Assembly: GCA_022702125.1 (NCBI GenBank)
Contig: JAKOND010000127.1
Coordinates: forward strand, 1 to 36,727
Reading direction: 5' to 3'
DNA: 36,727 nucleotides
From: Burkholderiaceae bacterium
Lineage (GTDB): Bacteria > Pseudomonadota > Gammaproteobacteria > Burkholderiales > Burkholderiaceae_C
Shown in pieces: positions 5,042 through 22,816 of this stretch. How positions within the stretch are numbered: position 1 is the first letter of the stretch; the number at the start of each line of letters is the position of its first letter. A program made the position numbers and the translations under genes. The notes beneath the pieces were generated by a model that worked only from the letters and a program-made list of their open reading frames with translations, ran no database searches and had not been told where the DNA came from.

Positions 5042-5072
5042 CGGAAACCGACGCGTCGATGCGACCCCCGCC

Positions 5073-5092
5073 GGGCCGGCGGCGGCCGGCCC
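5073..5092. terminator. GC hairpin between convergent asparaginase and SDR genes
   Basis: A perfect 8-bp inverted repeat (GGGCCGGC / GCCGGCCC) with a 4-base loop lies in the 58-bp gap between two convergent stop codons. Its position suits a shared terminator, but there is no T-run on either side. Confidence 0.35.
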
Positions 5093-5099
5093 GCGACGC

Positions 5100-6083: not shown

Positions 6084-6164
6084 GCTGGCAGCCGGAAACG
6101 GGAAGGGACCCCGTTTATAGAACGGCCCGGCCCGCCCCCGGTAAGCAGGTTTTGCGACGGTGCT

Positions 6165-6195
6165 GCCGGCGCCATGGCGCCAGCGCCGCGCCGGC
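6165..6195 (-). terminator. Hairpin just past the TonB receptor stop codon
   Basis: GCCGGCGC (6165-6172) and GCGCCGGC (6188-6195) form a perfect 8-bp stem four bases after the receptor stop codon. Nested in it is the palindrome GGCGCCATGGCGCC. No T-run follows on the minus strand, so a Rho-independent role is uncertain. Confidence 0.35.
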
Positions 6196-6198
6196 GCG

Positions 6199-8334
6199 TC
6201 ACAGCGCCGCGCGCAACCCCACGAACACCTGCCGGCCGGCGGCCGGTTCGTAGAAGCGGCCGTTGCTGTCGTTGACGATCAGCGAGCCGATGTAGCGCCG
6301 GTCGGCGATGTTGTCGATGCGGCCGAACAGGAACATCTTGTGCCCCTGCCAGTTGAAGCCGTAGCCGGTGCGCAGGTTCAGCACCGCGTGCCCGGATGCG
6401 GCGGCGGTGTTGAGGTCGTTCGCGTAGGTGCGGCTCTCCACCCGGGCCTCCAGCGCCACCGACCACGGCGTGCCGGGCTGGTAGGCGGCTTCGGCGTAGA
6501 GCGTGTGCAGCGGCACGCCCGGCAGCCGGTTGCCGGCGGCCACGGTGGTGCCGGCGTTGGAGAAGGCCTCGCCGAAGGTGGCGCGCGTCAGGGTGTAGGC
6601 GACCTGCGTGGACACCGGCTGCCAGCCCGCCTTCCAGGACATCTCCGCGCCGCGGCGCCGCACCCCGTCCACGTTCTGGAAGACGGCGCGGCCCGCCACG
6701 TTGGCCACCGGCACGATCTCGCCCCGGGTGCGGGTGTCGAACACCGCCGCCTCGACCGCATGCGCGCCCGCGCGCAGCTTGGCGCCGACCTCGGCCTGCC
6801 GGCTGCGCGCCGCGCCCAGGCCCAGGTTGGGGCCGGCGCCGGTGCGGGCGTAGGCGGCCTCGGCCAGGGTCGGCGTCTCGAAACCGCCGCCGGCGTTGGC
6901 GTACAGGTTGAGCGCGTCGGTCAGGTGCCAGACCAGTCCGGCCATGGGGCTGGTGTTGGAGTAGCGCACGCTGCCGGTGCCGTCGTTGCCGTCGATCAGG
7001 TGGCGGTCGTCGATCGACAGGCGCACCCGGCTGCTGCGCACCCCGGCCAGCAGCCGCCACTGCGGCGCGAACATCCAGTCGGCGTGGGCATAGAGGTCGG
7101 AGCTGCGGGCGCGGTCGTCCTCGTTGCGGCGCAGCGCGCCGCTCGTGCCGTTGTCGTTGACGAAGCCGGTGCGCGTCTCCTGCTGGCGGTCGGCGCTGGC
7201 GCCCACCGTCCAGCGCAGCGGCAGGCCGTTGGCGCGGGTGGCGCGGGTCCAGCTGACGCCGGCGCCGCCGTAGCTGCGGTCCAGGTCCACCACGCCGCCC
7301 GACGAATTGAGCGCCGCGCCGGAGAAGGCCAGGTACTGCGTCAGGTCGCGCTGGCCGGCGTAGAGCCGCGCGCCGAGCGTGTCCTCGTCGTTGAGGCGGT
7401 GCTCCACCACCACGCCCGCCTGCTGCTGCGACACCTTCTTACGGGTGCCGAACTGCCGGGCCGCGTCGATGGCCTGGCGCGGGTTGGCCGCGGCCTGGGC
7501 GGCGGTCAGGCCCAGCGGATCGCCGGTCCAGGGCTGGTCGAACAGGTTCAGCACGCCGGTGATGCGCGTCTGTCCGGTGGGCCGCGCCACCACCTTGGCG
7601 TTGAGCACCGTGCGCCGCGCCGCGCCGTTGTCGCGCCAGCCGTCGGTCTCGAAGCCGGAGAGGTCGATCAGGCCCGACAGCTCCCGGGTGCCGCCGCCGA
7701 GCGATGCGCCCAGCTGCCGCATGCCGAACGAGCCCGCCCCGACCGACACGGTGCCGGTCGGCCCGCCGACGGGCGGCTCGCGGGTGAAGATCTGCACCAC
7801 GCCGCCGGCCGCGTTGCCGTACTGCAGCGCCGCCGGTCCGCGCAGCACTTCCACCCGCTCGGCCGACGCCAGGCTGGCGTTGGACACCTGGCCCTGGCCG
7901 TCCGGCATGGTGGCGGGGATGCCGTCGATCAGGATGCGCACGCCGCGGATGCCGAAGGTCGACCGGGTGCCGAAGCCGCGCACCGAGAGCTGCAGGTCCT
8001 GCGAATAGTTCTGGCGGTCGCGCACCCGGATGCCGGGCACCGTGTCCAGCAGTTCGGACAGCTGCGTCAGCGGGCGGGCGGTGGTGAACGGGTCGATGCG
8101 CACCGCGTCGATGGCGGCCGGCGCGTCGAAGCGTTCCTGCTCGGTGCGGCTGGCGCTGATGACCACGTCCCGCAGGCGGGGCGCGGGCGCGGCGGCAGGC
8201 CCACCGGTGTCCGGAACGGCGGCCGGCACGGGCGATGCGTCCTGCGCCAGTGCGGCAGGCGCGTGCGCCAGGCCGGCGGCTACCAGCGCCGCGAGTGCGG
8301 CCGGGGAGAAGGGGGGACGGTGGCGCAATGGCAT
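6199..8334 (-). CDS. TonB-dependent outer-membrane receptor
   Basis: A 711-residue outer-membrane receptor that would import a bound ligand with energy from TonB/ExbB/ExbD. The N-terminus (MPLRHRPP, then an Ala/Leu-rich core ending APAALAQ) is a signal peptide. It is followed by a Pro/Ala linker and a TonB-box-like DVVISA segment, then the plug domain, including the stretches VPGIRVRDRQN, RGFGTRSTFGIRGV, LIDGIPATMPDGQG and EVLRGPAALQYGNAAGG. The rest is a beta-barrel with alternating strands ending in FVGLRAAL; the last residue is Leu rather than the more usual aromatic. The plug signature places it among siderophore/metal-type receptors, but the ligand is not readable. An upstream in-frame ATG at 8457 would destroy the signal peptide and was rejected. 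It is divergent from the OprB-like gene. Confidence 0.9.
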   Translation of the reverse strand: MPLRHRPPFSPAALAALVAAGLAHAPAALAQDASPVPAAVPDTGGPAAAPAPRLRDVVISASRTEQERFDAPAAIDAVRIDPFTTARPLTQLSELLDTVPGIRVRDRQNYSQDLQLSVRGFGTRSTFGIRGVRILIDGIPATMPDGQGQVSNASLASAERVEVLRGPAALQYGNAAGGVVQIFTREPPVGGPTGTVSVGAGSFGMRQLGASLGGGTRELSGLIDLSGFETDGWRDNGAARRTVLNAKVVARPTGQTRITGVLNLFDQPWTGDPLGLTAAQAAANPRQAIDAARQFGTRKKVSQQQAGVVVEHRLNDEDTLGARLYAGQRDLTQYLAFSGAALNSSGGVVDLDRSYGGAGVSWTRATRANGLPLRWTVGASADRQQETRTGFVNDNGTSGALRRNEDDRARSSDLYAHADWMFAPQWRLLAGVRSSRVRLSIDDRHLIDGNDGTGSVRYSNTSPMAGLVWHLTDALNLYANAGGGFETPTLAEAAYARTGAGPNLGLGAARSRQAEVGAKLRAGAHAVEAAVFDTRTRGEIVPVANVAGRAVFQNVDGVRRRGAEMSWKAGWQPVSTQVAYTLTRATFGEAFSNAGTTVAAGNRLPGVPLHTLYAEAAYQPGTPWSVALEARVESRTYANDLNTAAASGHAVLNLRTGYGFNWQGHKMFLFGRIDNIADRRYIGSLIVNDSNGRFYEPAAGRQVFVGLRAAL

Positions 8335-9945: not shown

Positions 9946-10019
9946 GCGGGTGTAGCTCAATGGCAGAGCTGTTGCTTCCCAAGCAACTGACGAGGGTTCG
10001 ATTCCCTTCACCCGCTCCA
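9946..10019 (+). tRNA. tRNA-Gly (anticodon CCC)
   Basis: A complete cloverleaf of 74 bases including encoded CCA. The acceptor stem GCGGGTG (9946-9952) pairs with CACCCGC (10009-10015). The anticodon stem GTTGC/GCAAC encloses the loop TTCCCAA, giving anticodon CCC at 9978-9980, which reads GGG. The T-arm carries GGTTCGATTCC. The discriminator base is T. No T-run terminator follows directly. Confidence 0.97.
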
Positions 10020-10552
10020 TCCTCCTGCATGGGAGACGATCGTTCCCACAGGCGAAAACCCCGTCGATGCCGAAGGCGTCACCTCGCCGTCCCGGCTCGG
10101 TGAGGCATCGCACGATGCTGCCAGCAGAGACGAGCTGGCGAAAAAGCGCATCCACCATCTACCCGGCAAAACCATGCGGTTTCTCCCGCAGCCGATGCAC
10201 GATCCGCAGCGCATCGGTATGCCTCGAAGCTTCCCGAAATTCATGGATGGGACCCCTGCCCGATGCCTGCAGGGCAGCCGCACCCATGGCGCGTGCATCG
10301 GTGCAGAAATTTCGACGGCATTTTCATGGAAACGCAGTAGGAAACTGTAAACGTATCCGACAGGATTTTCTGCGCCGAAAATTCAGTACCGAATTAGTGA
10401 TCTTAAAGAATCCAATCGAATCAATGACTTGAAGCCTGCATGCAATTTTCGATGAACAGTCGAGCTGTTCAGGAATCGTTGTAAAAGCTGTTTTCATTGG
10501 TACGTTTTTTGCGAACCGCTGCGTATCTGACACAACTTTGTCAGCAGTTCGC
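10020..10552. other. Long intergenic leader between tRNA-Gly and the exopolysaccharide operon
   Basis: About 530 bp without a gene I can support. The first half is GC-rich; from about 10320 to 10550 the DNA is clearly AT-richer than the flanks, with A/T runs such as TTTTTT at 10505-10510. Small dyads occur: AATTC-N6-GAATT at 10380-10395 and CTGACA-N6-TGTCAG at 10527-10544. The promoter of the operon must lie here, but no clear -35/-10 pair with normal spacing was found. Short frames on both strands have no recognisable features. Confidence 0.6.
10527..10544 (+). promoter_or_regulatory. Inverted repeat directly before the glycosyltransferase start
   Basis: CTGACA-N6-TGTCAG is a perfect 6-bp dyad ending eight bases before the ATG at 10553. 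It could be a protein-binding operator, or an RNA hairpin covering the ribosome-binding region. No Shine-Dalgarno word is visible before this ATG. Confidence 0.4.
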
Positions 10553-12001
10553 ATGGCTCACTCATTTCAACGATCATTTCGATTCGCCTCGGCCCGGGGC
10601 ATCTCCCTGCTTTCATGCCTTCTGGCGGCAGCGCCCGCGGAAGCGCTCGAGACTGCGCTTTTCGCCGTCCGCGTGAAAAGCCCCCTGGGGCCGGTGTGGG
10701 CGTGGACGTTGGGCAGCCTGATGGCGGTCGTGATGGTGCTGCTGACCGTCTATACGGCCCGGCACTACGTGTTTTCGCTGAATCGGCTGTTCGGTCGACA
10801 GCGCCATCCTTACGCCAGCATCGTCAGCGCCGACTGGCCGCGCGTCACCATCTTCGTGGCCGCGCACAACGAGGAGGATGTGATCCAGGACTGCCTGGAA
10901 AACCTGATGCTGGTGGACTATCCGGCAGACCGCATGGAGGTCGTCCCGGTCAACGACCGTTCGAGCGACCGCACGCGCGAGATCATCGATGCGGTGGCCG
11001 AGCGCTTTCCCGGCCGCATCAGGCCGTTCCATCGTACCGGCGGAAAGCCCGGGAAGGCTGCGGCGCTGAAGGACGCGACGGAAACCGTCGACACCGATTT
11101 CATCATCGTGTTCGACGCGGATTACATGCCGTCGCGGGGCCTCATCCGGCGCCTGATGGCACCTTTTTTCGATCCGGAAGTGGGTGCGGTGATGGGGCGC
11201 GTCGTTCCGCTCAACGTGGGTGCCAACCTGCTGACGCGGTTGCTCGACCTGGAGCGTTCCGGCGGCTACCAGGTCGACCAGCAAGCGCGCATGAACCTCG
11301 GCCTGGTGCCGCAGTACGGCGGCACCGTGGGGGGCATCCGGATGAGCGCGCTGCGCGCCGTGGGTGGCTGGCACGACGACGTGCTGGCCGAGGACACGGA
11401 TCTGACCTACCGGCTGCTGCTGGGCCGTTGGCGCACGGTCTACCACAACCGCGCCGAATGCTACGAGGAAGTGCCCCAGAGCTGGTCCGTGCGCATGCGC
11501 CAGATCAAGCGCTGGTCGAAGGGCCACAACCAGGCGATGGTGCGCCACGCCGGAGCCCTGTACCGCAACCGCGACCTGGGCCTGATCGAGCGCCTGGACG
11601 GCCTGTTGCTGCTCGGCGTCTACATGATGTCGCCGATCCTGCTGCTGGGCTGGGTGCTGAGCGTGCTGATGTACTTCACCGTCAGCATCCAGTGGCTGGC
11701 GCCGGCGCTGCTGCTGATGGGCTTCATGGTCCACAGCGCGCTTGGCAACTTCGCCGCGTTCTTCGAGATCGCCACGGCGGTGCACCTGGACCGCTCGGAC
11801 CGCCGCATCCGGTTGCTGGCCTTCTCCTTCCTGGGCTTCATCGTGAGCGCCGTGGCGATCGCACGATCCGTCTGGGAGCAGCTGGTGGTCGACCGCATGC
11901 CCGGACGCGCCTTCCACTGGGACAAGACCGTGCGCTACCGGCGCCCCATGGCGAGCCCGGTGTCGGCCATGGCGGCCCACCTCCCGAAAGGCCGGCCTTG
12001 A
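10553..12001 (+). CDS. Processive family-2 glycosyltransferase (polysaccharide synthase)
   Basis: An inner-membrane polysaccharide synthase candidate of 482 residues. Residues 1-32 look like a signal-anchor, and a transmembrane helix follows at about 49-68. The GT2 catalytic domain carries all hallmarks of processive enzymes (BcsA, PgaC, NfrB): VND at 133-135, DAD at 188-190, the acidic AEDTD at 279-283 and QIKRW at 317-321. At least three hydrophobic segments follow (about 340-365, 370-400, 415-435). No PilZ or MshEN-type c-di-GMP domain is present on this chain. The start was set at ATG 10553; a TTG at 10538 would add five residues. Its stop overlaps the next start (TGATG). Expected role: polymerise a nucleotide sugar, probably UDP-ManNAc or UDP-GlcNAc, and push the chain across the membrane. 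The sugar is inferred only from the neighbouring wecB. Confidence 0.88.
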   Translation: MAHSFQRSFRFASARGISLLSCLLAAAPAEALETALFAVRVKSPLGPVWAWTLGSLMAVVMVLLTVYTARHYVFSLNRLFGRQRHPYASIVSADWPRVTIFVAAHNEEDVIQDCLENLMLVDYPADRMEVVPVNDRSSDRTREIIDAVAERFPGRIRPFHRTGGKPGKAAALKDATETVDTDFIIVFDADYMPSRGLIRRLMAPFFDPEVGAVMGRVVPLNVGANLLTRLLDLERSGGYQVDQQARMNLGLVPQYGGTVGGIRMSALRAVGGWHDDVLAEDTDLTYRLLLGRWRTVYHNRAECYEEVPQSWSVRMRQIKRWSKGHNQAMVRHAGALYRNRDLGLIERLDGLLLLGVYMMSPILLLGWVLSVLMYFTVSIQWLAPALLLMGFMVHSALGNFAAFFEIATAVHLDRSDRRIRLLAFSFLGFIVSAVAIARSVWEQLVVDRMPGRAFHWDKTVRYRRPMASPVSAMAAHLPKGRP

Positions 12002-13200
12002 TGTTCGCGCTGCTGGCCGGGGCGACGCTCCTGGTCGTGATCATTCCGATGTTGCCGGCGCTGGTCGAATGGCTGCGCCCGAGCGACGTGGTTCCGTTGC
12101 CGATCGACGAGACCGATGCGCTCGACCCGCCGTTCCTGGCGCACCGTTTCCACGGGATGCTGGCGCAGGCTCTGCGGTCGGGTGCCACGCACCTCGGAAA
12201 TTCCGAGCTGGCCGTCCTGCCGCGAGGCGCCGGTGCCGCGCCATGGCCGTTCTCGGTGGAAGAACGGGACAAGCGCGCCAGCCGGAGGCTGTGGCATGTG
12301 GACGGCGATGCGCAACTGCCCGAGCAGATGGCATTCCAGGTCGAGGTCGCAGCGACGGGTACGCTGCGCTCGGCCCCGTACGGGGTGTACCGCGCGCTGT
12401 GGTCCGACAGGACGTTGCACGTGTCCGCCGGCGGCATCGTGCTGCGCTGGGCCCATGGCCGCGAGGTGCTGGCGCAGGAGAAATGCGTTCTGGCAGGCCG
12501 GGTCACGGCCGCGGAATGCCTCACGCTGGCCGGTCCGGCGAGCTTCACGCTGCTGCATGCGCCGACGATCCGTTTCATGCCCTCCCCGCCACGCGCGACG
12601 CCGCGACCCATGGCTGCGCTGCCCATCGAGACCTGGCCCGCCGAACTGGCCTGGGACCCGGACCAGCGCCGCGGCTTCAGCAAAGGCTCCGTGAGCCTGC
12701 CGCCGGGGCGGGCCTGGACCGGGGATATCGTGAGCATCGGCGACCTGGCATTGGGCGATGGCTGCGATGTTTCCGGCAGTCTCAGGACGCATGGCCGCCT
12801 CTGGCTGGGACGGGATTGCCGGGTCAGCGGCAGCGTTTTCGCGGACGGGGGCATCCAGCTCGATGCCGGCTGCGCCATCGCCGGCGCCGTGGTGTCGGAA
12901 ACCGCGGTCGACCTGGGTGAGGACTGTCGCATCGGCGCGCCCGACAAGGTGACCACGCTGGCCGCGCCGCGCATTCAGGTGGCTGCCAACGTGACGGTGC
13001 ACGGCACGGTATGGGCGGGCGAGCATGGCGGGATGGCCGACGTCCGGGTTCTCGCGCAGCCCGTCGAAGCCGAACGCGTCGAAGCGCCCGGAACACCCGC
13101 GATCGCCGAGACTGCCTCGGAGGAGCGCGAGGTCGAGCCGGTCGCACCGCTACGCCCCGTGCGCAGCCCGGTCCGCGAACCCGAGCAGGCCCTCGCATGA
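12001..13200 (+). CDS. Membrane-anchored beta-helix (bactofilin-like) protein
   Basis: A 399-residue protein with one N-terminal membrane helix (about 2-22), a middle domain of unknown type (about 45-230), a beta-helix region (about 240-345) and a disordered acidic/Pro-rich tail. In the beta-helix the motif G-x-x-C or similar recurs exactly every 18 residues, with Cys at 255, 273, 291 and 309, as expected for a three-sided helix with one cysteine stacked per turn. Such polymer-forming or bactofilin-like domains make scaffolds. A role in positioning the synthase complex is inferred from its place directly behind the glycosyltransferase (1-base overlap) and before the deacetylase candidate (4-base overlap). 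The ATG at 12001 was chosen over the longer open frame because upstream sequence belongs to the glycosyltransferase. No specific family name can be given with certainty. Confidence 0.75.
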   Translation: MFALLAGATLLVVIIPMLPALVEWLRPSDVVPLPIDETDALDPPFLAHRFHGMLAQALRSGATHLGNSELAVLPRGAGAAPWPFSVEERDKRASRRLWHVDGDAQLPEQMAFQVEVAATGTLRSAPYGVYRALWSDRTLHVSAGGIVLRWAHGREVLAQEKCVLAGRVTAAECLTLAGPASFTLLHAPTIRFMPSPPRATPRPMAALPIETWPAELAWDPDQRRGFSKGSVSLPPGRAWTGDIVSIGDLALGDGCDVSGSLRTHGRLWLGRDCRVSGSVFADGGIQLDAGCAIAGAVVSETAVDLGEDCRIGAPDKVTTLAAPRIQVAANVTVHGTVWAGEHGGMADVRVLAQPVEAERVEAPGTPAIAETASEEREVEPVAPLRPVRSPVREPEQALA

Positions 13201-15185
13201 CCGCCCTCGGTCCACCGAAGCTCCTGTGGGTGCGCAGGCTGGGACTGCTCGGCCTGGCGCTGGCCGGGTTGTCGCTGCTCTGGCACTGGAGCCGCGACGC
13301 GGATACCGCGGCGACCCAGGTGACGCGGCTGGCGCTGCTGATTCCGGACGATCTCTCCGAGGACGACGTGCATGTGAAGGCGTGGCAGGACGCGGCGGCC
13401 GAAACCGGGTTCGCCCTGTCCGTGGTGCGCGCCTCCGCCTTGCTGCGGCCCGGCGGCTATTCGCCGGATGCCGCGCTGATCGTGCCGGACACGGTGCATC
13501 GCCGCATGAACGACGCCCTGGTCGCCCAGCTGGACCGGCGCGTGCGAAGCGGCGGGCAGATCATGCTGGTGGGCGATGCCGGCCTGGCCGACATGGATGG
13601 CAACTTCCATCCGGTCCAGTCGCGCTTCTCGGGCATGGCGGGCGTGCGCTACGGACTGTACGGCGAGCTCGGGGGCGACATGGCCAGCCAGCAGGTGGCC
13701 TGGGTGGACGGGGCGGCCGTGCCCATCCTGCGCCTGTCGCCCGGCAAGCTGATACGGGAAGGCAGCCAGGAACCGCTCACCAGCAATCAATCGCCGCCCG
13801 GGGCCGACGAGAAGCTCGCCGTGGTCAGCTACAACTACGGCCGGCTGCGTTACCCGGTGCTCAACACCCGGGGCCCGTTCGACGGCCGGCGGCTGATGCA
13901 CTTCGACGGCGGCGGCGTGCTCGCCGGCCTGCGCTCCCACGGCAAGGGCAAGGTGCTGTTCGTCAACCTGCCGCTGGGTTACCTGAAGCTGCGGACCGAC
14001 GGCTTCTTCCTGAGCAGCTTCCTGCACTATTTCGGCCAGGACGTGGTCGCGCTGCCCCAGCTCTCGCCGATGCCCGACGCGCGCGGCGCCTTGATCATGA
14101 ACTGGCACATCGACTCCGCGGCGGCCGTTCCGGCCATGGAGTCGCTCAACGAACTGGGGGCCTTCAGGCAGGGACCCTATTCGGTCCACCTCACCGCCGG
14201 ACCGGATGTGGATGTCGCCGGCGATGGCCAGGGCATGGACCTGCGCAACAACGCCCGCATGAAGGAGTGGGTGCGCCGTTTCGTCGAGCGCGGCGATGAG
14301 GTCGGCAGCCACGGCGGCTGGATCCACAACGAATTCGGCCGCCAGGTCGACAAGTGGGACCCGAAGGCATCGACCCCGCTGATCAGGAAAAACCTGGCGG
14401 CCATCACCGCGGCCAGCGGCCGGCCGGTGCGCGAATATTCCGCGCCCATCGGCAACCATCCGGCGTGGGTGACCGACTGGCTGCGCGCGCGCGGCATCCA
14501 CGCCTACTACTCCACCGGGGACATCGGCATGGCGCCGACGCGCAGCTACCAGGACGGCAAGCGCGGGCCTTCGGACATGTGGGCCTTCCCGGTGCTGAGC
14601 TACGGCACCTACGCGAGCTTCGAGGAAGCGCAGAGGGCCCACCTGCCCGAGCAGGACATCGAAGCCTGGCTCAAGGACGTGACCGATTTCTGCGCCGAGT
14701 ACCGCACGGTGCGGCTGGTGTATTTCCACCCGCCGGGCATCGCGATGTTCCCCGCCGCGTTCAAGGGCTGGATGCAGCACACCGCCGAACTCGTGGAGCG
14801 CCGGTCGTTGCGCTGGACCACCATGGCGCGCTACACCGAATTCGCCAACAAGCGGCTGAGGGTCCGCTGGACGCTCGAGCCCGACGGCGACCGGCCCGGT
14901 GCCCAGGTGCTCCGGGCCGGCCACCCCCGCTCGCTCGAGCACATGGCCTGGCTCCTGCCCGCCGGGCGCTATGCCAAGCCCGGCGTGCTGCAAGGCACGG
15001 CGCACATCGACCGCGACGGCGCCTACTGGCGCGTGGTCGCCGGCGCCTCGCCGAACCTGCGCTTGGGTCTCCTGCCCGCCACGGCCGATGCCGGGCCCGG
15101 CGTTCCCGCCCCGTCCGCCGCGCCCGGCCATCCGCCGGTCGCCACCGTTTCCGATTCTTCTTCTACCGCGGTTCCCGCTCCATGA
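13197..15185 (+). CDS. NodB-like polysaccharide deacetylase candidate, membrane-anchored
   Basis: A 662-residue protein. Residues about 14-30 form an N-terminal membrane anchor. A first domain (about 42-285) has alternating strands such as VTRLALLIPDD, AALIVPD and QIMLVGDAG, like a flavodoxin/amidotransferase fold. The second (about 295-580) carries motifs like the NodB/CE4 metal site: NWHIDS (302-307), SHGGWIHN (371-378) and REYSAPIGNHP (412-422). If it works as such, it removes acetyl groups from an amino-sugar polymer in the periplasm. The His-His spacing is one residue longer than in the classical HSxxH, so this is a divergent family. It overlaps the beta-helix gene and wecB by 4 bases each (ATGA). 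A larger paralogue closes the operon at 19283. Confidence 0.7.
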   Translation: MTALGPPKLLWVRRLGLLGLALAGLSLLWHWSRDADTAATQVTRLALLIPDDLSEDDVHVKAWQDAAAETGFALSVVRASALLRPGGYSPDAALIVPDTVHRRMNDALVAQLDRRVRSGGQIMLVGDAGLADMDGNFHPVQSRFSGMAGVRYGLYGELGGDMASQQVAWVDGAAVPILRLSPGKLIREGSQEPLTSNQSPPGADEKLAVVSYNYGRLRYPVLNTRGPFDGRRLMHFDGGGVLAGLRSHGKGKVLFVNLPLGYLKLRTDGFFLSSFLHYFGQDVVALPQLSPMPDARGALIMNWHIDSAAAVPAMESLNELGAFRQGPYSVHLTAGPDVDVAGDGQGMDLRNNARMKEWVRRFVERGDEVGSHGGWIHNEFGRQVDKWDPKASTPLIRKNLAAITAASGRPVREYSAPIGNHPAWVTDWLRARGIHAYYSTGDIGMAPTRSYQDGKRGPSDMWAFPVLSYGTYASFEEAQRAHLPEQDIEAWLKDVTDFCAEYRTVRLVYFHPPGIAMFPAAFKGWMQHTAELVERRSLRWTTMARYTEFANKRLRVRWTLEPDGDRPGAQVLRAGHPRSLEHMAWLLPAGRYAKPGVLQGTAHIDRDGAYWRVVAGASPNLRLGLLPATADAGPGVPAPSAAPGHPPVATVSDSSSTAVPAP

Positions 15186-16372
15186 CGACCTTCCCCATCG
15201 CGCCTGAACTTTCCACGCGCAAACCCGTCCTGATCTCCGTCGGCACGCGCCCCGAGATCATCAAGATGGCACCCGTGTACTCCGAGCTGCGCCGTCGCGG
15301 CATCCCGGTCGTCTGGGTGCACACCGGGCAGCACCGCGAGATGGCCGAGTCGCTCTACGCCTTCTTCGACATCGAACCCGAACACGAAGTCGTGCTCGAA
15401 CGCAGGAACGGCAGCCTGGCGCACCTGAACGCACTGCTGCTGGAAGGGCTGTCCGATATCTTCGAGAAGGTCCGGCCGGGCGCCGTGCTGGTGCACGGCG
15501 ACACGACCAGCACGCTGGGCTCGGCCCAGGCGGCGTTCTACCTCGACATCCCGATCGGGCATGTCGAAGCCGGCCTGCGGACCTTCAATGCGCGCGAGCC
15601 GTTCCCGGAGGAAAAGAACCGCGAGCTCACCGCGCGACTGGCGCGCTGGCATTTCGCGCCCACCGCGGGCGCCGCGGCCAACCTGGGCGCGGAGGGCCTG
15701 TCCGGCGACGGGGTGCACATGGTCGGCAACACGGCCGTCGATGCGGCGGTGGCCGGCACCGCGCGCCTCGCCGAACTGCTGGACAACGGCACGCTGGCAT
15801 TGCCGGAGCCGCTGCAGCGGCTGCGGCCGCACCTGGGACGGTGCCGCCTGATCACCGTGACCGCGCACCGGCGCGAGAACTGGGGCCCCGGCATCCGGAA
15901 CATCGCACGGGCCGTGGCACGCCTGCTGGCGCAGCACGACGATCTGGCGGTGGTCTGGCCGGTGCACGGCAACCCTGCCGTCAGCGAGGTGGTGCATGCC
16001 GAACTCGGCGCGTTGGCCGGGACGCTCGGAGGCCGGCTCTGCCTGTGCCCGCCGCTGGATTACCCGGCCCTGCTATGGTGCCTGCAGCACAGCCTGCTGG
16101 CGATGACCGACTCCGGCGGCATCCAGGAGGAGGGCGCGGCACTGTCGTGTCCGGTGCTGGTGCTGCGCAGCACCACCGAGCGGCCCGAACTGGTCGAGGC
16201 CGGCGCCGGCATGATCCTCGGCACCGACGAGGACCACATCGTCGCCACCGTGGGCCGGATGCTGTCCGGCGGCGAAGCGCTCGACCGCATGCGCTCCGCG
16301 GTGAACCCCTTCGGCGATGGCCGGACCGCGCGGCGCATCGCCGACGTGCTGGCTCGCGACCTCGGGGCGTGA
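15182..16372 (+). CDS. wecB: UDP-N-acetylglucosamine 2-epimerase (non-hydrolysing)
   Basis: Interconverts UDP-GlcNAc and UDP-ManNAc in the cytoplasm; 396 residues, the usual length is about 375. Motifs: SVGTRPEIIKMAP near the N-terminus, HTGQHREM, HGDTTSTLG, HVEAGLRT, VTAHRRENWG, PVHGNP, SGGIQEEG and RSTTERPE, all typical of the WecB/MnaA family. The operon holds no UDP-ManNAc dehydrogenase (WecC), so ManNAc itself rather than ManNAcA is the likely product used. The ATG overlaps the preceding stop by 4 bases. This gene is the best clue to the sugar in the polymer made by this operon. It could also be a second copy serving O-antigen or enterobacterial-type antigen synthesis, though no such genes lie nearby. 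Confidence 0.94.
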   Translation: MTTFPIAPELSTRKPVLISVGTRPEIIKMAPVYSELRRRGIPVVWVHTGQHREMAESLYAFFDIEPEHEVVLERRNGSLAHLNALLLEGLSDIFEKVRPGAVLVHGDTTSTLGSAQAAFYLDIPIGHVEAGLRTFNAREPFPEEKNRELTARLARWHFAPTAGAAANLGAEGLSGDGVHMVGNTAVDAAVAGTARLAELLDNGTLALPEPLQRLRPHLGRCRLITVTAHRRENWGPGIRNIARAVARLLAQHDDLAVVWPVHGNPAVSEVVHAELGALAGTLGGRLCLCPPLDYPALLWCLQHSLLAMTDSGGIQEEGAALSCPVLVLRSTTERPELVEAGAGMILGTDEDHIVATVGRMLSGGEALDRMRSAVNPFGDGRTARRIADVLARDLGA

Positions 16373-16374
16373 AC

Positions 16375-17175
16375 ATGGCGGCCTCTTCTTTCGCATCCGC
16401 GTCCCGCGCCCTGGCCCTCCTCGGAATTTTCGCGGGTCCCGCGGCCATGGCACAGGATGCCGTGCCTGCGCGCGCCACTTTCGACCTGGTGCGCACCCGC
16501 AGCACCCTGTCGGCGGGCCTCCCCGACGGCGAAGCGAACTACCTGCGCGGCACCTGGGCGCTCGCGGGCGGCGACGTGCTGCGGGCGGAACTCCTCGACG
16601 AGCGCAAGTTCGGCGACCACGGAGGCATCGCCGGCCTGTCCTACACCGCGGTGCTGTCGCCCGACTGGTACGGCACCGGCACGGTGGTGGGCGGCGTCGG
16701 CGGTCCGAACTGGGCCAACAACCGCGTCGACCTGCAGCTGTCGCGCAAATGGCTGCCGAACCGGCAGCTGGTGACATCCGCGGCGTACTACCACGCGGCC
16801 TTCGACAACCGCCGCAGCGACGCGGGAGCGCGCCTGTCCGCCGTCCTGTACCTCGATGCGCCGGTGGTGCTCGAAGCCGGGGTCATCCTGAACGTGAGCC
16901 AGCCGGGCAGCATCCATTCGCACATGCCGTACGCCAGCGCCACCCTGGGGCGGGAAGGCGTGCAGTACTTCAGCCTGCGCGCCAGCCGCGGCACCGAGGC
17001 CTACCAGGCGCTCGGCAGCCAGGCCCAGCTCGTGAACTTCAGCAGCCGCAGCCTCGGTGCCATCTGGAAGCTCTGGCTGGGGCCGCGCTGGGGCCTCAAT
17101 GCGCAGGCCGAGTACTACGAGAACCCGACCTACCACCGCAGCACGCTGGGCGCGGGCCTGTTCGTCCAGTGGTAG
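16375..17175 (+). CDS. YaiO-like outer-membrane beta-barrel protein
   Basis: A 266-residue exported protein. Residues 1-26 are a signal peptide (ending GPAAMA-Q). The mature part consists of short alternating strands (for example TFDLVRTRSTLSAG, YLRGTWALAGG, VTSAAYYHAAFDN, PYASATLGREG) and ends with an aromatic residue (LFVQW), as required for outer-membrane barrel insertion. The pattern matches the YaiO-type barrel domain, which in NfrA-like proteins is joined to TPR repeats; here no TPR part exists. It starts two bases after wecB. I infer that it forms the outer-membrane exit for the polysaccharide. It could instead be a receptor or a structural barrel. Confidence 0.72.
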   Translation: MAASSFASASRALALLGIFAGPAAMAQDAVPARATFDLVRTRSTLSAGLPDGEANYLRGTWALAGGDVLRAELLDERKFGDHGGIAGLSYTAVLSPDWYGTGTVVGGVGGPNWANNRVDLQLSRKWLPNRQLVTSAAYYHAAFDNRRSDAGARLSAVLYLDAPVVLEAGVILNVSQPGSIHSHMPYASATLGREGVQYFSLRASRGTEAYQALGSQAQLVNFSSRSLGAIWKLWLGPRWGLNAQAEYYENPTYHRSTLGAGLFVQW

Positions 17176-17182
17176 GCCCGGC

Positions 17183-17995
17183 ATGAGCAAACCCTTCCAT
17201 CTCCTCGATCGTGCCCGGGGACATCGGGGCGGCACCATTCCCCAGCACCGCGCGATCTGGAGCCTGCCGTTGCCCCTCGGGCGGATATGGGGCAGCGCGG
17301 CGCTCGCGTGCGTCCTGAGCGCGGCGCTGCTGTGGCTCCGCCCCTGGGTCAGCCTGGCCTGGGGCAGCCAGATGATCTGGTGGATGCATGCCCTGGCCTT
17401 GCCCGGCCAGTTCGACCTGGTCGGCCCGGGGACGGGCGTGGGCGAGATCTTCGCGCTGGGCGTGCCCTCGATCGAACTGGCGCTGGACGTGCCCGATACG
17501 CGGATGCCGCTCTGGCATGGCGGTGCGCTGGCGGCGCTGTGGTGGTGCACCGCCTGGCTGCCCGAGCCGGCCAAGCCGCTGGCTTTCTTCGTGCGGCTGG
17601 GCGTGCTGATCCATGCCGCGTCGGTGCTGTTCTTCGTGTTCTGGCCCGCCAGCTTCGTCCATACCGTGGGAGGCCATGTGATCAGCGGCATGCGCCAGAG
17701 CTGGTACCTGATCGTGCTGACGCCCTGGATCCACCTGGCGACCTACTACCTGTTCCCGTTCGCCATGTGGCAGCGTGCCCTGCTGACCCTGCTGACCGCC
17801 GGCTACCTGTTCGTGCTCACGCCCCTGCAGTACGCGCTGCACGTGGCGCTGGTGAACGCAGGGGGCCTGATCCTGCTGCCGCTGCTGCACCTGCTGTTCG
17901 GCGTGATGCTGGCGATCACCGGCTTCGTGGCGCTCTACGGCTGGGGCATGAGCTGGCCCGGCCAGCGCTCGGCCGACGACAGGGCACGGCCGTGA
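17183..17995 (+). CDS. Polytopic inner-membrane protein of unknown function
   Basis: Not recognised. A 270-residue integral membrane protein with about six or seven hydrophobic segments: near 36-58, 62-74, 112-127, 134-158, 173-194, 199-224 and 227-256. The N-terminus is basic (residues 1-23), which suggests it faces the cytoplasm. Trp, His and aromatic residues are frequent within the membrane segments (WWMHALAL, WIHLATYYLF, HVALVNAGG, LLHLLFG), and several His residues sit near predicted membrane faces, which may hint at an enzyme such as an acyltransferase-like or thiol-free membrane enzyme; this is only a guess. No exosortase Cys-Arg-His pattern was seen. The gene starts seven bases after the barrel gene and its stop overlaps the next start (GTGA). 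Confidence 0.8.
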   Translation: MSKPFHLLDRARGHRGGTIPQHRAIWSLPLPLGRIWGSAALACVLSAALLWLRPWVSLAWGSQMIWWMHALALPGQFDLVGPGTGVGEIFALGVPSIELALDVPDTRMPLWHGGALAALWWCTAWLPEPAKPLAFFVRLGVLIHAASVLFFVFWPASFVHTVGGHVISGMRQSWYLIVLTPWIHLATYYLFPFAMWQRALLTLLTAGYLFVLTPLQYALHVALVNAGGLILLPLLHLLFGVMLAITGFVALYGWGMSWPGQRSADDRARP

Positions 17996-19263
17996 GGCGC
18001 CTGCGGCGCACGGCGTGCGCGATCGCCCTGGCATGCGGCGCGATGACCGTCGGCTACGCCGAGGTCGCCCCGGCTCCGCAGGGGTCCGGCGCCTGCGGAT
18101 ACGGGCATCTGGTGCAGGCCGACTTCCGCGACGCGGCACTGCGCGCTTTCGAGCGCCTGATGCTCGCGGCGCCCGGCCGTCCCGCGGACGGCGCGGTGAA
18201 GACGCACCAGTCGCCGGGGCATGTCGATCCCCAGGGGCAGGCCTGGCACCACGTGTCGGCCTACCAGGCGAACCTGGCCTTCATCGGTGCGCTGCGGATC
18301 GATCCTGGCCAGGCGCCCGCAGCCGCGCGCTGGCTCCGCTGGCAGGCGCGGCACACCACGCCGACCGGCTCCGGACGGGGCGTGGTGTTCGACCACTGGG
18401 TGCGCGCCTCCGATCTGCAGGAAGCGGATTGCCCGCCGGGCCGCGATGCGCGCACCTGCCCGCAGGTCGATGCCTACGACAGCACCGCCGCCACGCTGCT
18501 GCTGATGGCCGAGGCCTACCTGCGCCACAGCGACGACGCCAGCATGCTGCGCGAACCCGCCATGCGCGCGGCCCTGGAGGCCGCGGCCGGCACGATGGCT
18601 TCCCTGGCCGAACCCGGCGGGCTGAGCTGGGCCAAGCCCGACTATCCCGTGGCCTACCTGATGGACGCGCTCGAGGTGGCGGCCGGCTGGCGTGCGTGGG
18701 CCCGTCTGCAGACCGAGGTGTACCAGGTGCCGCAGGCCGGCATCAACAGCATGGGCACGGCCGAGACACTGGACGCGGCGATCGTCAGGCAACTCTGGCA
18801 CGCGCCCAGCCACACCTGGCGCGTGCGCCTGGACGCGCCGAAGCCGAATTTCTCGACCTGGTATCCCGATACGGTGGCCCAGGCCTGGCCGCTGCTGTGG
18901 AGTCGCGACGCCGGCCCTGCGGAGCAGCAGCGCGCGCGTTCGGCCTGGCGCAAGGCGGCGTCGCAGTGGAAGGACCGTGCCGACTGGTCTCGGCGCAATG
19001 TCGATCCCGACGGTTTCTGGTGGCCCGCGATGGCCGTGGCAGCCCACTGCGTCGGCGAGGTCGACGACGCGCGCGCCTGGGTGGCCCGCGCCCGCAGCGA
19101 CTGGATGCAGCCGGCCCGGCCCTTCGGGTGGCCCTTCCAGGTGGGCGATCTGCTGTGGCTTTTCTGGCTGGCCGATCCCGCCGACGACCCGAAGACGTCG
19201 CGGGCCGCGGCGCCGCCCGGACCCGTGGCGTCCGACCCTGCTCCTGTTGTCCCTTTCCTCTAA
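17992..19263 (+). CDS. Exported glycosidase-like alpha-helical protein
   Basis: A 423-residue protein from GTG at 17992, which overlaps the previous stop by 4 bases. The N-terminus (Arg-rich then hydrophobic, ending about residue 23) is a signal peptide. The rest is helix-rich with repeated aromatic pairs: AWHHVSAYQANLAF, GVVFDHWVRASD, YDSTAATLLLMAEAYLR, MDALEVAAGW, FSTWYPDTVAQAWPLLW, DPDGFWWPAMAVAAH and FQVGDLLWLFWLAD. This pattern fits an (alpha/alpha)6 toroid as in six-hairpin glycosidases and polysaccharide lyases. A role in trimming the polymer in the periplasm is inferred from the operon, where many synthase-dependent systems carry a hydrolase. The exact family and catalytic acids could not be assigned. 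The C-terminal 25 residues are Pro/Ala-rich. Confidence 0.65.
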   Translation: MRRLRRTACAIALACGAMTVGYAEVAPAPQGSGACGYGHLVQADFRDAALRAFERLMLAAPGRPADGAVKTHQSPGHVDPQGQAWHHVSAYQANLAFIGALRIDPGQAPAAARWLRWQARHTTPTGSGRGVVFDHWVRASDLQEADCPPGRDARTCPQVDAYDSTAATLLLMAEAYLRHSDDASMLREPAMRAALEAAAGTMASLAEPGGLSWAKPDYPVAYLMDALEVAAGWRAWARLQTEVYQVPQAGINSMGTAETLDAAIVRQLWHAPSHTWRVRLDAPKPNFSTWYPDTVAQAWPLLWSRDAGPAEQQRARSAWRKAASQWKDRADWSRRNVDPDGFWWPAMAVAAHCVGEVDDARAWVARARSDWMQPARPFGWPFQVGDLLWLFWLADPADDPKTSRAAAPPGPVASDPAPVVPFL

Positions 19264-19282
19264 CTTCCATCCAAGGTGCCCC

Positions 19283-21526
19283 ATGCCTCCTACCTTCGCC
19301 CCATGGCGCTTTCTCGTCCGGCGGTCCCGCCGGTTGATGGCCGCGCTGCTCGTCCTGCCGTTGCTTCTCGCGTTCAATGCGGGCGCCCACGCCGCCGCTT
19401 CGCGTGACAGCCTGACCCTGCTGGTCCCCGACGGCGCGAGCCTGTCGAGCTGGCAGGTGCAGGTGTGGACGGATTCGGCAGCCGAAGAGGGCATCCAGCT
19501 CAAAACCATCACCGATTCGGCCTTCCTGGCGCTCGGCGCCCGGGCGGCGGGCACGATCGCCGGCCTGATCCTGCCCGACAGCGCGCACATCCAGGCCAGC
19601 GATGCCCTGGTGGCGGCGGTCAAGCAGTACGTGTCCGGCGGCGGCAAGCTGATGCTGACGTACGACGCGGGCGCACTGACGGACAACGGCTTCTACTCGC
19701 TCGGCGGCAAATCCCGCTTCTCCGATCTGGTGGGCGTGGATTACGTGCAGTACGACCTGCTGCGCGACCGCGTGGTGGGCTTCGGCCCGATCGTGGGCAA
19801 CAAGGGCCGCATGGACAACCTGTCCCTGCCGCCCGGCAAGTACGTGCCCTACGCGGCCCCGGCCGCCAACGCGCGTGCGGCCACGTCCAACGCCGTCTTC
19901 GTACCGACGAACCGCTTCGATCCGGGCGGCTCCCAGTTCATGCGCGCCATCGTCGAAGCACGCGCCAACGGCATCTCGACCAGCCTCGCGCGTCTTTCCC
20001 CGGCCACCGCCAGTGCGAGCCAGCTGCGTTACGACCTGAACGTGGGCAACGCGACGCAGGCGCTGAGCCAGCTGCTGTCGCAACTGCTCAATTTCGGCAA
20101 CACCGGCAACAGCCTGCGCCAGACCGACGACATCAGCGCGGTCGTGAACGCCAGCGGCACCGCCTGGACCGAGAACCCGCCCGCGCTCACGCCGTCCAGG
20201 CTGGCGTCGTCCGATGCCGAGATGCAGTCCGTCAGCGGCTACGGCTTCGGCGAACTGAGCTACTACCACTTCGTGACGACCGGCACCTTCCCGGGCAACG
20301 TGTTCCTGAGCTCGCCGTCGCACGGACTGGTCGCGGGCGAGCGCGCCTACGGCTCCGGCAAGGTCCTGTTCGTCAACATCCCGCTCGGCTTCTTCAAGGC
20401 CATCGGCACCGACGGCGCGCTGATGCACGGTTTCCTGAACCACTTCGCGCGCGACCAGGTGGCCATGACGCGCCTGTCCGTCCAGCCGAAGGGCATCGGC
20501 GGCCTGGTCTACAACTGGCACGTGGACGACGGCGACGACGTGGTGCCCGATTTCCGCAACATCATGGCCCAGGACTTCATGCAGAACCAGGGCCCGTTCT
20601 CCGTGCACTTCACCGCGGGCCCCGACGTGGTCACGCCGGGCGACGGCATGGGCATGAACCTGCCCAACAATCCGGCCGCCCAGGACGTCGTGCTGAAGAC
20701 CGGCAAGTTCGGCAAGTACGCGCGCGCCAGCGGCATGCAGCACGAGATCGGCTCGCACGGCGGCTGGAACCACGACCTGTACGGCCTGAACGCGACGGAA
20801 ACCAACGCCGCGACCTACCTGCCCTGGGTGCTGCTGAACTTCAACGCCCTCGAGAACGTCACCAAGACCCCGCTGCGCGAATACTCGGCGCCGGTCGGCA
20901 ACAACCCGAGCTGGGCGACCCGGTGGCTGGAGCAGCACGGCGTGGTGGGCATGTACACGGTCAGCAACACCGGCGCCGCGGCCACCCGCGAATGGCGCGC
21001 CGGCGCCCGACTGACCGACAAGCTGTGGGCCATGCCGATCGCGCCTTTCGGCAAGTCGGCCACCTTCGAGGAGTTCGACCTCAACGGCATCTCCGACGGC
21101 ACCTCCGCCCAATGGCTGGTCGACCTGCAGAGCTTCGTGTCCAACAACCGCACCAACCGCCTGTTCTACAACCATCCTCCGGGAGCGATGGCCCACCTGG
21201 GCGTGGTCAAGACCTTCGTGAAGCGCGCGGCCGCGCTCCAGGCGGTCGGCCGCTTCGACTGGTACACCCTCGCGGAGATCGCCGATTTCTCGCAGCGCCG
21301 GATCCAGACGAACTGGAGCAGCAGCACCAACGCGCTCGGCCTGACCACGTTCGTGGCGAGCAACCCCGTGTCGCTGACCGACGTGACATGGATGCTGCCG
21401 CGCAGCGCGTATTGGCTGCCGGTCGTCACGGGCGGCTCGGGCACGGTCTCGGTGACGGATTCCACGCACTGGCTGGTCACCGCCAAGTCGGGCACCAGCA
21501 TCCAGTTCGTCGCGCTGCAGCGCTGA
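19283..21526 (+). CDS. Second NodB-like deacetylase candidate, exported
   Basis: A 747-residue paralogue of the protein encoded at 13197. A signal peptide or anchor covers about 18-38 (ending AGAHAAA). The first domain starts SLTLLVPDGASLSSWQVQVW and keeps the same order of strands; compared with the shorter copy it carries an extra block of roughly 100 residues between about 195 and 330. The second domain repeats the motif set: YNWHVDDGD (410-418), SHGGWNHD (491-498) and REYSAPVGNNP (532-542), followed by FYNHPPGAM where the first copy has YFHPPGIAM. AAGG lies just before the ATG (CCAAGGTG), 19 bases after the previous stop. It should act in the periplasm on the polymer made by this operon. 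It ends the operon; next comes a short gap with a palindrome and then convergent pdxY. Confidence 0.72.
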   Translation: MPPTFAPWRFLVRRSRRLMAALLVLPLLLAFNAGAHAAASRDSLTLLVPDGASLSSWQVQVWTDSAAEEGIQLKTITDSAFLALGARAAGTIAGLILPDSAHIQASDALVAAVKQYVSGGGKLMLTYDAGALTDNGFYSLGGKSRFSDLVGVDYVQYDLLRDRVVGFGPIVGNKGRMDNLSLPPGKYVPYAAPAANARAATSNAVFVPTNRFDPGGSQFMRAIVEARANGISTSLARLSPATASASQLRYDLNVGNATQALSQLLSQLLNFGNTGNSLRQTDDISAVVNASGTAWTENPPALTPSRLASSDAEMQSVSGYGFGELSYYHFVTTGTFPGNVFLSSPSHGLVAGERAYGSGKVLFVNIPLGFFKAIGTDGALMHGFLNHFARDQVAMTRLSVQPKGIGGLVYNWHVDDGDDVVPDFRNIMAQDFMQNQGPFSVHFTAGPDVVTPGDGMGMNLPNNPAAQDVVLKTGKFGKYARASGMQHEIGSHGGWNHDLYGLNATETNAATYLPWVLLNFNALENVTKTPLREYSAPVGNNPSWATRWLEQHGVVGMYTVSNTGAAATREWRAGARLTDKLWAMPIAPFGKSATFEEFDLNGISDGTSAQWLVDLQSFVSNNRTNRLFYNHPPGAMAHLGVVKTFVKRAAALQAVGRFDWYTLAEIADFSQRRIQTNWSSSTNALGLTTFVASNPVSLTDVTWMLPRSAYWLPVVTGGSGTVSVTDSTHWLVTAKSGTSIQFVALQR

Positions 21527-21605: not shown

Positions 21606-22619
21606 TCATTCCGGAAAGGACACCGTCTCCGAACCGGTTCCTCGATCCGCATCGCCGACCCGGGCGCACTGTCCGCCGCGGTCGTCCGCCCGGACGGGGC
21701 CGACTGCGCGCGGGCAGGTCCGCCAACCGGCCAGCGCCACCGCGTCGAAGACCGGGGAGGGCGCCACGATCTGGTCGCGGCAGGCGACCAGCGGCAGGTC
21801 GCGCTGGCCGGCCGCGGTCCGGGACACCAGGGCATGGAGCGTCGAGACGGCGCGCGCCACCGCCGCGGGCGTGTCGGCGCCGTTCAGCAGATGGCCCAGC
21901 AGCACCGCCGAGAACACGTCGCCCATGCCGTTGGGCAGCGGCTGCAGCGCGATGAAGGGCGTCTGCACGATCCAGGCGCCGTCCGCCTCCACCGCCAGGG
22001 TGGCGAGCCGGTCGGACGGCAGGTCGGGCGTGCGCAGGCTGGTCACGACGATGGTGGACAGGTGGGGGCGGTCCGCGCCGCCCAGCAGCGCGCGGGCGGC
22101 GGCGACGGCCTCGTCCACCGAACCGACCGGGGCGCCGTGCAGCAATTCGAACTCGAAGTGGTTGGGCGTGACGAGGCTGGCGTGGCCCAGCGCGCGGCGG
22201 CGCAGGAATTCCGGCACGCCCGGGCGGACGAAGACGCCCCGGCCGACGTCGCCCATGACCGGGTCGCACAGGTAGCGGGCGCCGGGCCGGTGCCGGCGGA
22301 TTTCCTGCACCGCCGACAGCACCGCCTCGCCCACGCCGGCATCGCCGAGGTAGCCCGAGAGCACCGCTTCGCAGCGCGCCAGCACGCCCTGGGCGCGCAG
22401 GCCGTCGAGCACGTCCTGGACGTGCGCCGGCGCGAACACCTGGCCCTTGAATTCGCCGTAGCCGGTGTGGTTGGAGAACTGCACCGTGTGCACCGCCACC
22501 GGCTGCGCCCCCAGCAGCTGCAGCGGCAGCATCGCCGCCGCGTTGCCGACATGGCCGTAGGCGACATGGGACTGGAGGGACAGCACGAGCGGCGGGCCGG
22601 GCGGGAGGGAGGTCGGCAT
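21606..22619 (-). CDS. pdxY: Pyridoxal kinase with 41-residue C-terminal tail
   Basis: Phosphorylates pyridoxal (vitamin B6 salvage) with ATP; 337 residues against about 287 in E. coli PdxY. Key motifs: SLQSHVAYGHVGN near the N-terminus, VQFSNHTGYG, LSGYLGDAG, CDPVMGD, TPNHFEFELL and the phosphate-loop NGMGDVFSA, where the Asp is the catalytic base. The normal end of the family falls near VFDAVAL; after that comes a 41-residue tail rich in Arg, Gly and Asp with no resemblance to the family, possibly from loss of the original stop. The ATG at 22619 fits the family N-terminus; the frame upstream is leader. It converges on the exopolysaccharide operon and diverges from the small membrane-protein gene. 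Confidence 0.92.
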   Translation of the reverse strand: MPTSLPPGPPLVLSLQSHVAYGHVGNAAAMLPLQLLGAQPVAVHTVQFSNHTGYGEFKGQVFAPAHVQDVLDGLRAQGVLARCEAVLSGYLGDAGVGEAVLSAVQEIRRHRPGARYLCDPVMGDVGRGVFVRPGVPEFLRRRALGHASLVTPNHFEFELLHGAPVGSVDEAVAAARALLGGADRPHLSTIVVTSLRTPDLPSDRLATLAVEADGAWIVQTPFIALQPLPNGMGDVFSAVLLGHLLNGADTPAAVARAVSTLHALVSRTAAGQRDLPLVACRDQIVAPSPVFDAVALAGWRTCPRAVGPVRADDRGGQCARVGDADRGTGSETVSFPE

Positions 22620-22816
22620 GGCGGGGGGTATCGGGCGGAGAGGGGATCGGACGCGCGAGCGCCGGTCGGAATGCCGATTCTCTTCCGGGAACGACCGTCC
22701 GGCGGCCTTCGGCGTTGGCACGGTCCTACGTCCGGTCGCCCCGGAGGCCGACAGCGTCCGGGTCCATCCGCTGCCATGCTCCGCCCATCCATAACTCAAG
22801 GGAAAAAGGTCTCGCT

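Follow-up and report, generated by a model that had tools for sequence, protein, structure and literature searches.

The 36,727-nt contig JAKOND010000127.1 of a Burkholderiaceae bacterium (assembly GCA_022702125.1), which in its full length is called the window here and is numbered on its forward strand, contains eight genes between positions 10553 and 21526, all on the + strand, that probably encode an undescribed type of synthase-dependent exopolysaccharide system. In the open reading frame (ORF) calls of the window the junctions between the eight genes measure, in order, -1, -4, -4, +2, +7, -4 and +19 bases, in exact agreement with the overlaps of 1-4 bases and gaps of 2-19 bases reported in a preliminary description of the sequence. 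The same order was recovered in three genera and a core set of the genes in 65 loci, which argues against a chance arrangement.

The first gene (P0001, 10553-12001) encodes a GT2 processive glycan synthase of 482 amino acids whose membrane segments lie around residues 48-66 and 348-437. It matches PF13641 at 1.2e-29 in the Pfam profile search, and the residues D135, D188xD190, E280-D281 and Q317xxR320W321 are the same in all 25 members aligned, as expected from the earlier statement that all catalytic motifs are present. The nearest named family is PgaC/IcaA (TIGR03937, NCBIfam), against which P0001 scores 128.4 bits at a cut-off of 422.3; the identity with PgaC is 27%. The score against BcsA (TIGR03030) is 56.6 bits at a cut-off of 699. 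Neither a PilZ domain (Pfam and NCBIfam profiles) nor an MshEN domain (Pfam profiles) was matched in P0001. NfrB, which the preliminary description had taken as a guide, turned out to be a poor one: P0001 has no blastp match to NfrB, and the profile of the GT2 family gives NfrB 24 bits versus 270 for PgaC. Judged by its sequence, the synthase is closer to PgaC than to NfrB.

The second gene (P0002, 12001-13200) encodes a membrane-anchored beta-helix protein, as initially described, which can be refined to bactofilin-like. The match of the window protein alone to PF04519 is weak (16.1 bits, below the gathering cut-off of 27.9); in its family the profile matches 43 of 45 members at E up to 0.01, with a best value of 2.5e-8. 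Its single transmembrane segment lies at residues 4-22, and in most relatives the stretch after this segment is rich in K and R; from the positive-inside rule we expect that the beta-helix domain of P0002 probably faces the cytoplasm. The sixth gene (P0006, 17183-17995) encodes a polytopic inner-membrane protein that, as noted before, belongs to no recognised family: P0006 has no Pfam or NCBIfam match, and among 58 family members only isolated weak profile matches were found, none of them convincing. Its conserved residues are H22, R23, W60, P132, R138 and Y252.

The fourth gene product (P0004, 15182-16372) is WecB, a non-hydrolysing UDP-N-acetylglucosamine (UDP-GlcNAc) 2-epimerase, with 360 bits against TIGR00236 (cut-off 210.15). 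The window genome encodes a second wecB product, 44% identical, at another site (L111, G000:C268:5253-6383). The fifth gene product (P0005, 16375-17175), the only barrel of the operon, is an outer-membrane beta-barrel of the YaiO family, with 118.8 bits against TIGR04390 (cut-off 32) and 50.7 bits, also above the cut-off, against PF19413; no TPR domain was matched in it. Both assignments had been made correctly from the sequence at the outset. The seventh gene (P0007, 17992-19263, GTG start) encodes an exported protein with no Pfam, NCBIfam or glycoside hydrolase profile match; the profile MGH1-like_GH matches 3 of 45 family members, weakly. The AlphaFold (AF2) model of P0007, with a predicted local distance difference test score (pLDDT) of 85.5, shows an (alpha/alpha)6 barrel resembling GH100 invertases, GH8 oligoxylanases and GH116 enzymes (TM-score about 0.5, E about 1e-6 to 1e-5), and D160, E228, Y91 and Y291 do not vary among the 45 family members. 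The predicted fold thus bears out the earlier call of a glycosidase-like protein.

Two deacetylase candidates had been described as NodB-like: CE4a (P0003, 13197-15185), predicted to be periplasmic and anchored in the inner membrane, and its paralogue CE4b (P0008, 19283-21526), with a predicted signal peptide. They are 34% identical over 432 residues and have the motifs NWHxD and HGGWxH in common. For the window proteins alone the support is weak, P0003 scoring 18.7 bits against Polysacc_deac_1 at a cut-off of 23.1, whereas the family as a whole (34 of 59 members matched at E up to 0.001) gives firmer support to their status as candidates. The AF2 model of P0003 (mean pLDDT 92.6, N-terminal helix at residues 6-38) finds its closest PDB fold in PelA (9cgy, 7.4e-12), with a TM-score of 0.35 over the whole query and 13% identity; the next matches of the deacetylase part are human NDST1, ArnD and PgdA. 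GH42/GH164 enzymes also appear among the fold matches, in keeping with a GH42M-like alpha/beta domain, and the hydrolase domain of PelA is not present in P0003. The PelA residues H526, D528 (the base), D530, H600 and H604 (PMC12022489) correspond to N302, H304, D306, H372 and H377 of P0003, the catalytic histidine being H511; this correspondence was set by motif and not by structural superposition. In the alignment of 59 family members H304, H372, H377 and H511 are kept throughout, D306 in 57 and N302 in 54; D306, H372 and H377 would form the Asp-His-His metal triad. The CE4a/b family is related to CE4, CE18 and CE21 and is an exact match to none of them. Identity with Agd3 (CE18) was considered and is unsupported by the sequence, and Agd3 is not among the 50 fold matches listed. 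Phage deacetylases gave only weak partial fold matches.

A search with the deacetylase alignment in one genome per species (84,980 species) returned 132 relatives, of which 80 loci were kept. From these plus a few others, 65 loci contain GT2, YaiO and polytopic genes; they belong to Beta- and Gammaproteobacteria, Acidobacteriota and one Syntrophaceae genome. Their partner genes are the bactofilin-like gene (65 loci), wecB (63) and the glycosidase-like gene (48), and that all 65 include a CE4 gene is partly due to its use as bait. The gene content is thus conserved. Three further genera of the family carry all eight genes in the same order, with 42-86% identity. The window's own order is found in five loci, besides variants with additional CE4 or glycosidase-like (GH) copies, and in a GT2 tree built with a quick method it lies within an 11-row clade of Comamonadaceae and Sphaerotilaceae (support 100). 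As a block the order is thus kept only in this one clade, and other orders prevail elsewhere. With Bact for the bactofilin-like and TM for the polytopic gene, the main ones are WecB-GT2-Bact-CE4-YaiO-TM (14 loci, Acidobacteriota), WecB-GT2-Bact-GH-CE4-YaiO-TM (13 loci; Ralstonia, Collimonas, Cupriavidus and some Acidobacteriota), GT2-Bact-GH-WecB-YaiO-TM-CE4 (7 loci) and GT2-Bact-GH-CE4-WecB-YaiO-TM (7 loci). The Acidobacteriota form one group of the tree (support 93). A locus in Bradyrhizobium diazoefficiens SZCCT0423 (L092) with a diverged GT2 on a very long branch, a weak bactofilin match, WecB and a CE4 gene on the opposite strand is possibly a distant variant of the cluster.

With the GT2 synthase as bait (E up to 1e-40), orthologs were found in 9 of 151 genomes of the family, all with at least 500 bits, and in three of the 273 remaining genomes of the class draw. 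In these searches the synthase gene nearly always has bactofilin-like, YaiO and polytopic genes beside it. The order GT2-Bact-GH-WecB-YaiO-TM is present in G033, a 99% complete genome in which a deacetylase of the CE4a/b family was not found, and in G007, where the deacetylase lies on a separate contig; the three genomes of the class draw have WecB-YaiO-TM-GT2-Bact (two) and YaiO-TM-GT2-Bact (one). From such loci without CE4 or glycosidase-like genes we conclude that WecB, YaiO, the polytopic protein, the GT2 synthase and the bactofilin-like protein form the core. The eight-gene set recurs, but as a unit it has to be reduced to these five genes, to which the deacetylases and the glycosidase-like protein are accessory.

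A Fap-like amyloid operon encloses the five-gene core, between its fapE and fapF genes, in 11 gammaproteobacterial genomes, 10 of them of one genus. Two of these (L131, L132) are the WecB-bearing genomes of the class draw, to which nine further genomes of one genus were added. In the latter the genes follow the order FapC-FapD-FapE-WecB-YaiO-TM-GT2-Bact-FapF, except that FapC is missing from the available contig of one genome; thus FapC, FapD, FapE and FapF surround the core at L131, L132, L146 and L148-L154, and L147 has FapD, FapE and FapF only. At L131 (G356:C55:24000-43999) FapC, FapD, FapE and FapF score 173, 197, 92 and 307 bits. Where scored, the Fap-like genes stay below the NCBIfam equivalog cut-offs and therefore appear diverged. 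Since the nested layout is spread over two orders but mostly over one genus, it does not represent eleven independent events. Neither at the window operon nor at the other loci tested were linked fap genes found, and viral contigs contained no relatives of the fap-nested synthase. A FapF-like gene below the family cut-off is present in the window genome, distant from the operon and unlinked to it (L160, G000:C125:6696-7925). The nested module is not described in the searched passages of two papers on fap. The nesting suggests joint production of the protein and the sugar components of a single matrix.

Based on gene content, conservation, the catalytic motifs of the GT2 synthase, the family membership of WecB and the predicted folds of the deacetylases and the glycosidase-like protein, we consider it probable, though far from certain, that the operon encodes a complete exopolysaccharide system, synthase-dependent and of an undescribed type, that is supplied with N-acetylmannosamine (ManNAc) by WecB. 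On the substrate and product, the role of the scaffold, the export route and the function in the matrix, we propose the following. WecB would convert UDP-GlcNAc to UDP-ManNAc, which the synthase would polymerise alone or alternating with UDP-GlcNAc. The chain would pass the inner membrane through the synthase with the assistance of the polytopic protein, and the bactofilin-like protein, tethered to the membrane on its cytoplasmic side, would act as a scaffold by which the synthase is clustered or positioned. Acetyl groups would be taken off in the periplasm by CE4b and the anchored CE4a, and the glycosidase-like protein would trim the chains, which would leave the cell through the YaiO barrel. 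The presence of WecB in 63 of 65 clusters, despite the second wecB in the window genome, points to a dedicated supply of UDP-ManNAc. No further sugar-nucleotide, acyltransferase or glycosyltransferase family recurs in the neighbourhoods, among the families in at least seven loci that were considered, and the near constancy of wecB together with this lack of another conserved sugar-nucleotide gene suggests ManNAc as substrate. We infer that the product is a partly deacetylated ManNAc (or GlcNAc) polymer, and of the two sugars, ManNAc is favoured by the association with WecB across the family.

Several observations weigh against this proposal. The donor specificity of the synthase is not readable from its sequence, and WecB is absent near L065, L063 and L130 (G362). 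The whole deacetylase family has a histidine (H304, in N302-W-H304-x-D306) at the base position, where an aspartate is usual, and the second CE4 motif is one residue longer, H-x4-H instead of H-x3-H; the activity of CE4a and CE4b is therefore not assured. Deacetylases are also missing from several clusters. YaiO barrels are small, and we know of none that was shown to export a polymer. A truncated contig (L125, G109:C41, 3832 bases) has GT2-Bact-GH-TM, with neither WecB nor YaiO between GH and TM; its GT2 match includes an in-frame TGA, and decay or an assembly fault is possible there.

The clusters without wecB, and the fact that the closest named relative of the synthase is PgaC, a GlcNAc polymerase, would also agree with a GlcNAc polymer similar to poly-N-acetylglucosamine (PNAG) or chitin, for which WecB would only provide a minor ManNAc decoration or adjust the pool of UDP-GlcNAc and UDP-ManNAc. 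We regard this as unlikely, because the score against the PgaC model remains far under its cut-off and because such a side role is hard to reconcile with a wecB gene that is kept at several positions in nearly all clusters. The question of what the polymer does is raised by the fap-nested loci and by the sheath formers Sphaerotilus and Leptothrix, which carry the eight-gene form: instead of being free slime, the glycan might coat or be bound to a protein or fibre of the cell surface, as the partner of a functional amyloid or a sheath. The operon also occurs in non-sheathed genera, linked fap genes are confined to the nested loci among those tested, and the sheath genes of Leptothrix and Sphaerotilus are not well understood according to a 2026 study (PMC13386937), which cites lthB as GT8; we therefore hold a role of this kind to be rather doubtful.

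The E. coli cluster yaiO-yaiX-yaiP-yaiS (L115) has a similar parts list, namely a GT2 glycosyltransferase, a beta-helix acyltransferase, a deacetylase and a YaiO barrel, and YaiP is 27% identical to the synthase over 211 residues, so that the window operon could be a remodelled member of that kind and not a separate type. This is very improbable, as the yai cluster lacks WecB, glycosidase and polytopic genes, the window CE4 proteins do not match its deacetylase, and the bactofilin-like, polytopic, glycosidase-like, YaiO and CE4 family profiles match no E. coli protein tested. Being itself uncharacterised, the yai cluster would moreover explain little. In E. coli K-12, yaiX is interrupted by IS2. 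Returning to the ManNAc-based system that we prefer, we speculate, with more doubt than conviction, that it represents a new class of synthase complex organised by a membrane-tethered bactofilin-like scaffold, whose ManNAc-based glycan is made and exported together with functional amyloid, as a composite of the two, in some lineages and becomes, through the deacetylases and the glycosidase, a cationic slime in others.

The operon follows a tRNA-Gly(CCC) gene (9946-10019) and a leader region (10020-10552), which is a probable promoter region, although no sigma-70 consensus or promoter-like match was found in it; downstream lies an opposing pyridoxal-kinase-like gene (21606-22799). The GC content of the window is about 72%, and the third-position GC of the operon ORFs listed is 0.87-0.89, whereas values of 0.91-0.97 prevail in the flanks; such a difference would agree with acquisition. 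Integration at tRNA-Gly was considered, but a second copy of the 3' end of this tRNA is absent from the window, so that there is no evidence for an attachment site. A GGDEF diguanylate cyclase is encoded on the minus strand some 9 kb further downstream (30499-31629). GGDEF or EAL genes are found near several loci, including those of Sphaerotilus and Leptothrix, where a divergent EAL gene of the GGDEF-EAL type lies upstream on the minus strand at about 4000-6850 (L035, L036, L037, L038, L093). This is a hint at control of the operon by cyclic di-GMP, to be read with the caution that signalling genes are common in any case.

Since the genes recur in several proteobacterial families and in Acidobacteriota, the system is not a peculiarity of Burkholderiales. 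To our knowledge, ManNAc-based secreted polymers are scarcely known, the E. coli NGR being postulated and chemically undefined. The operon offers a compact and widespread system for this question in cultured species such as Variovorax, Pseudorhodoferax, Sphaerotilus natans, Comamonas and Collimonas. In both Proteobacteria and Acidobacteriota it links a polysaccharide synthase to a presumed scaffold of the bactofilin-like kind, and it includes three apparently unnamed families: the polytopic protein, the (alpha/alpha)6 glycosidase-like protein and the PelA-like deacetylase candidate, whose active site is altered.

In agreement with the preliminary description, the operon is not a pga, pel, bcs or nfr operon and corresponds to none of them as a whole; no TPR, PilZ or MshEN match was obtained. 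Likewise, no characterised locus and no description of the operon or its gene combination was found in the open-access literature, most subscription journals lying outside this search. A PEP-CTERM/Wzy-type cluster of Rubrivivax with an epimerase (PMC3684757) consists of different genes. From the cellulose (bcs) system the operon differs by a synthase far under the BcsA cut-off and by the lack of PilZ. Uncharacterised bacterial agd3 (CE18) operons have a deacetylase beside a glycosyltransferase and a polytopic membrane protein, as the operon does (Bamford et al. 2020, PMC7229062); in contrast to them, the operon lacks an ega3-type GH114 and pel-like outer-membrane genes, and the motif spacing is 66 residues in the window protein but >120 in Agd3. 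The Fap operon hosts the five-gene core in 11 genomes, whereas the window operon is free of fap genes. With the PNAG systems (pgaABCD/ica) the operon shares a PgaC-kind GT2, predicted periplasmic deacetylation and hydrolysis and an outer-membrane barrel; unlike these, it lacks the TPR porin PgaA and PgaD, its deacetylase and hydrolase are separate, unrelated proteins, and WecB, the bactofilin-like and the polytopic protein are added. With Pel it shares the logic of a hydrolase plus a deacetylase, and PelA (CE21) is the best PDB fold match of CE4a, with an alpha/beta domain, a deacetylase domain and a C-terminal beta-rich domain; motif 1 is NxHxD in CE4a versus HxDxD in PelA, and in place of PelF, a GT4 enzyme, and the TPR porin PelB, GT2 is its only glycosyltransferase and YaiO its only barrel. 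The NGR/Nfr system of E. coli is likewise synthase-dependent and tied to WecB, for a postulated ManNAc-based glycan (PMC8669472, PMC8669469), but the GT2 has no blastp match to NfrB, and MshEN, an NfrA-type TPR barrel and YbcH have no counterpart in the operon. With its synthase, deacetylation, trimming and barrel, the operon would thus follow the logic of PNAG and Pel, and its linkage to WecB is that of NGR.

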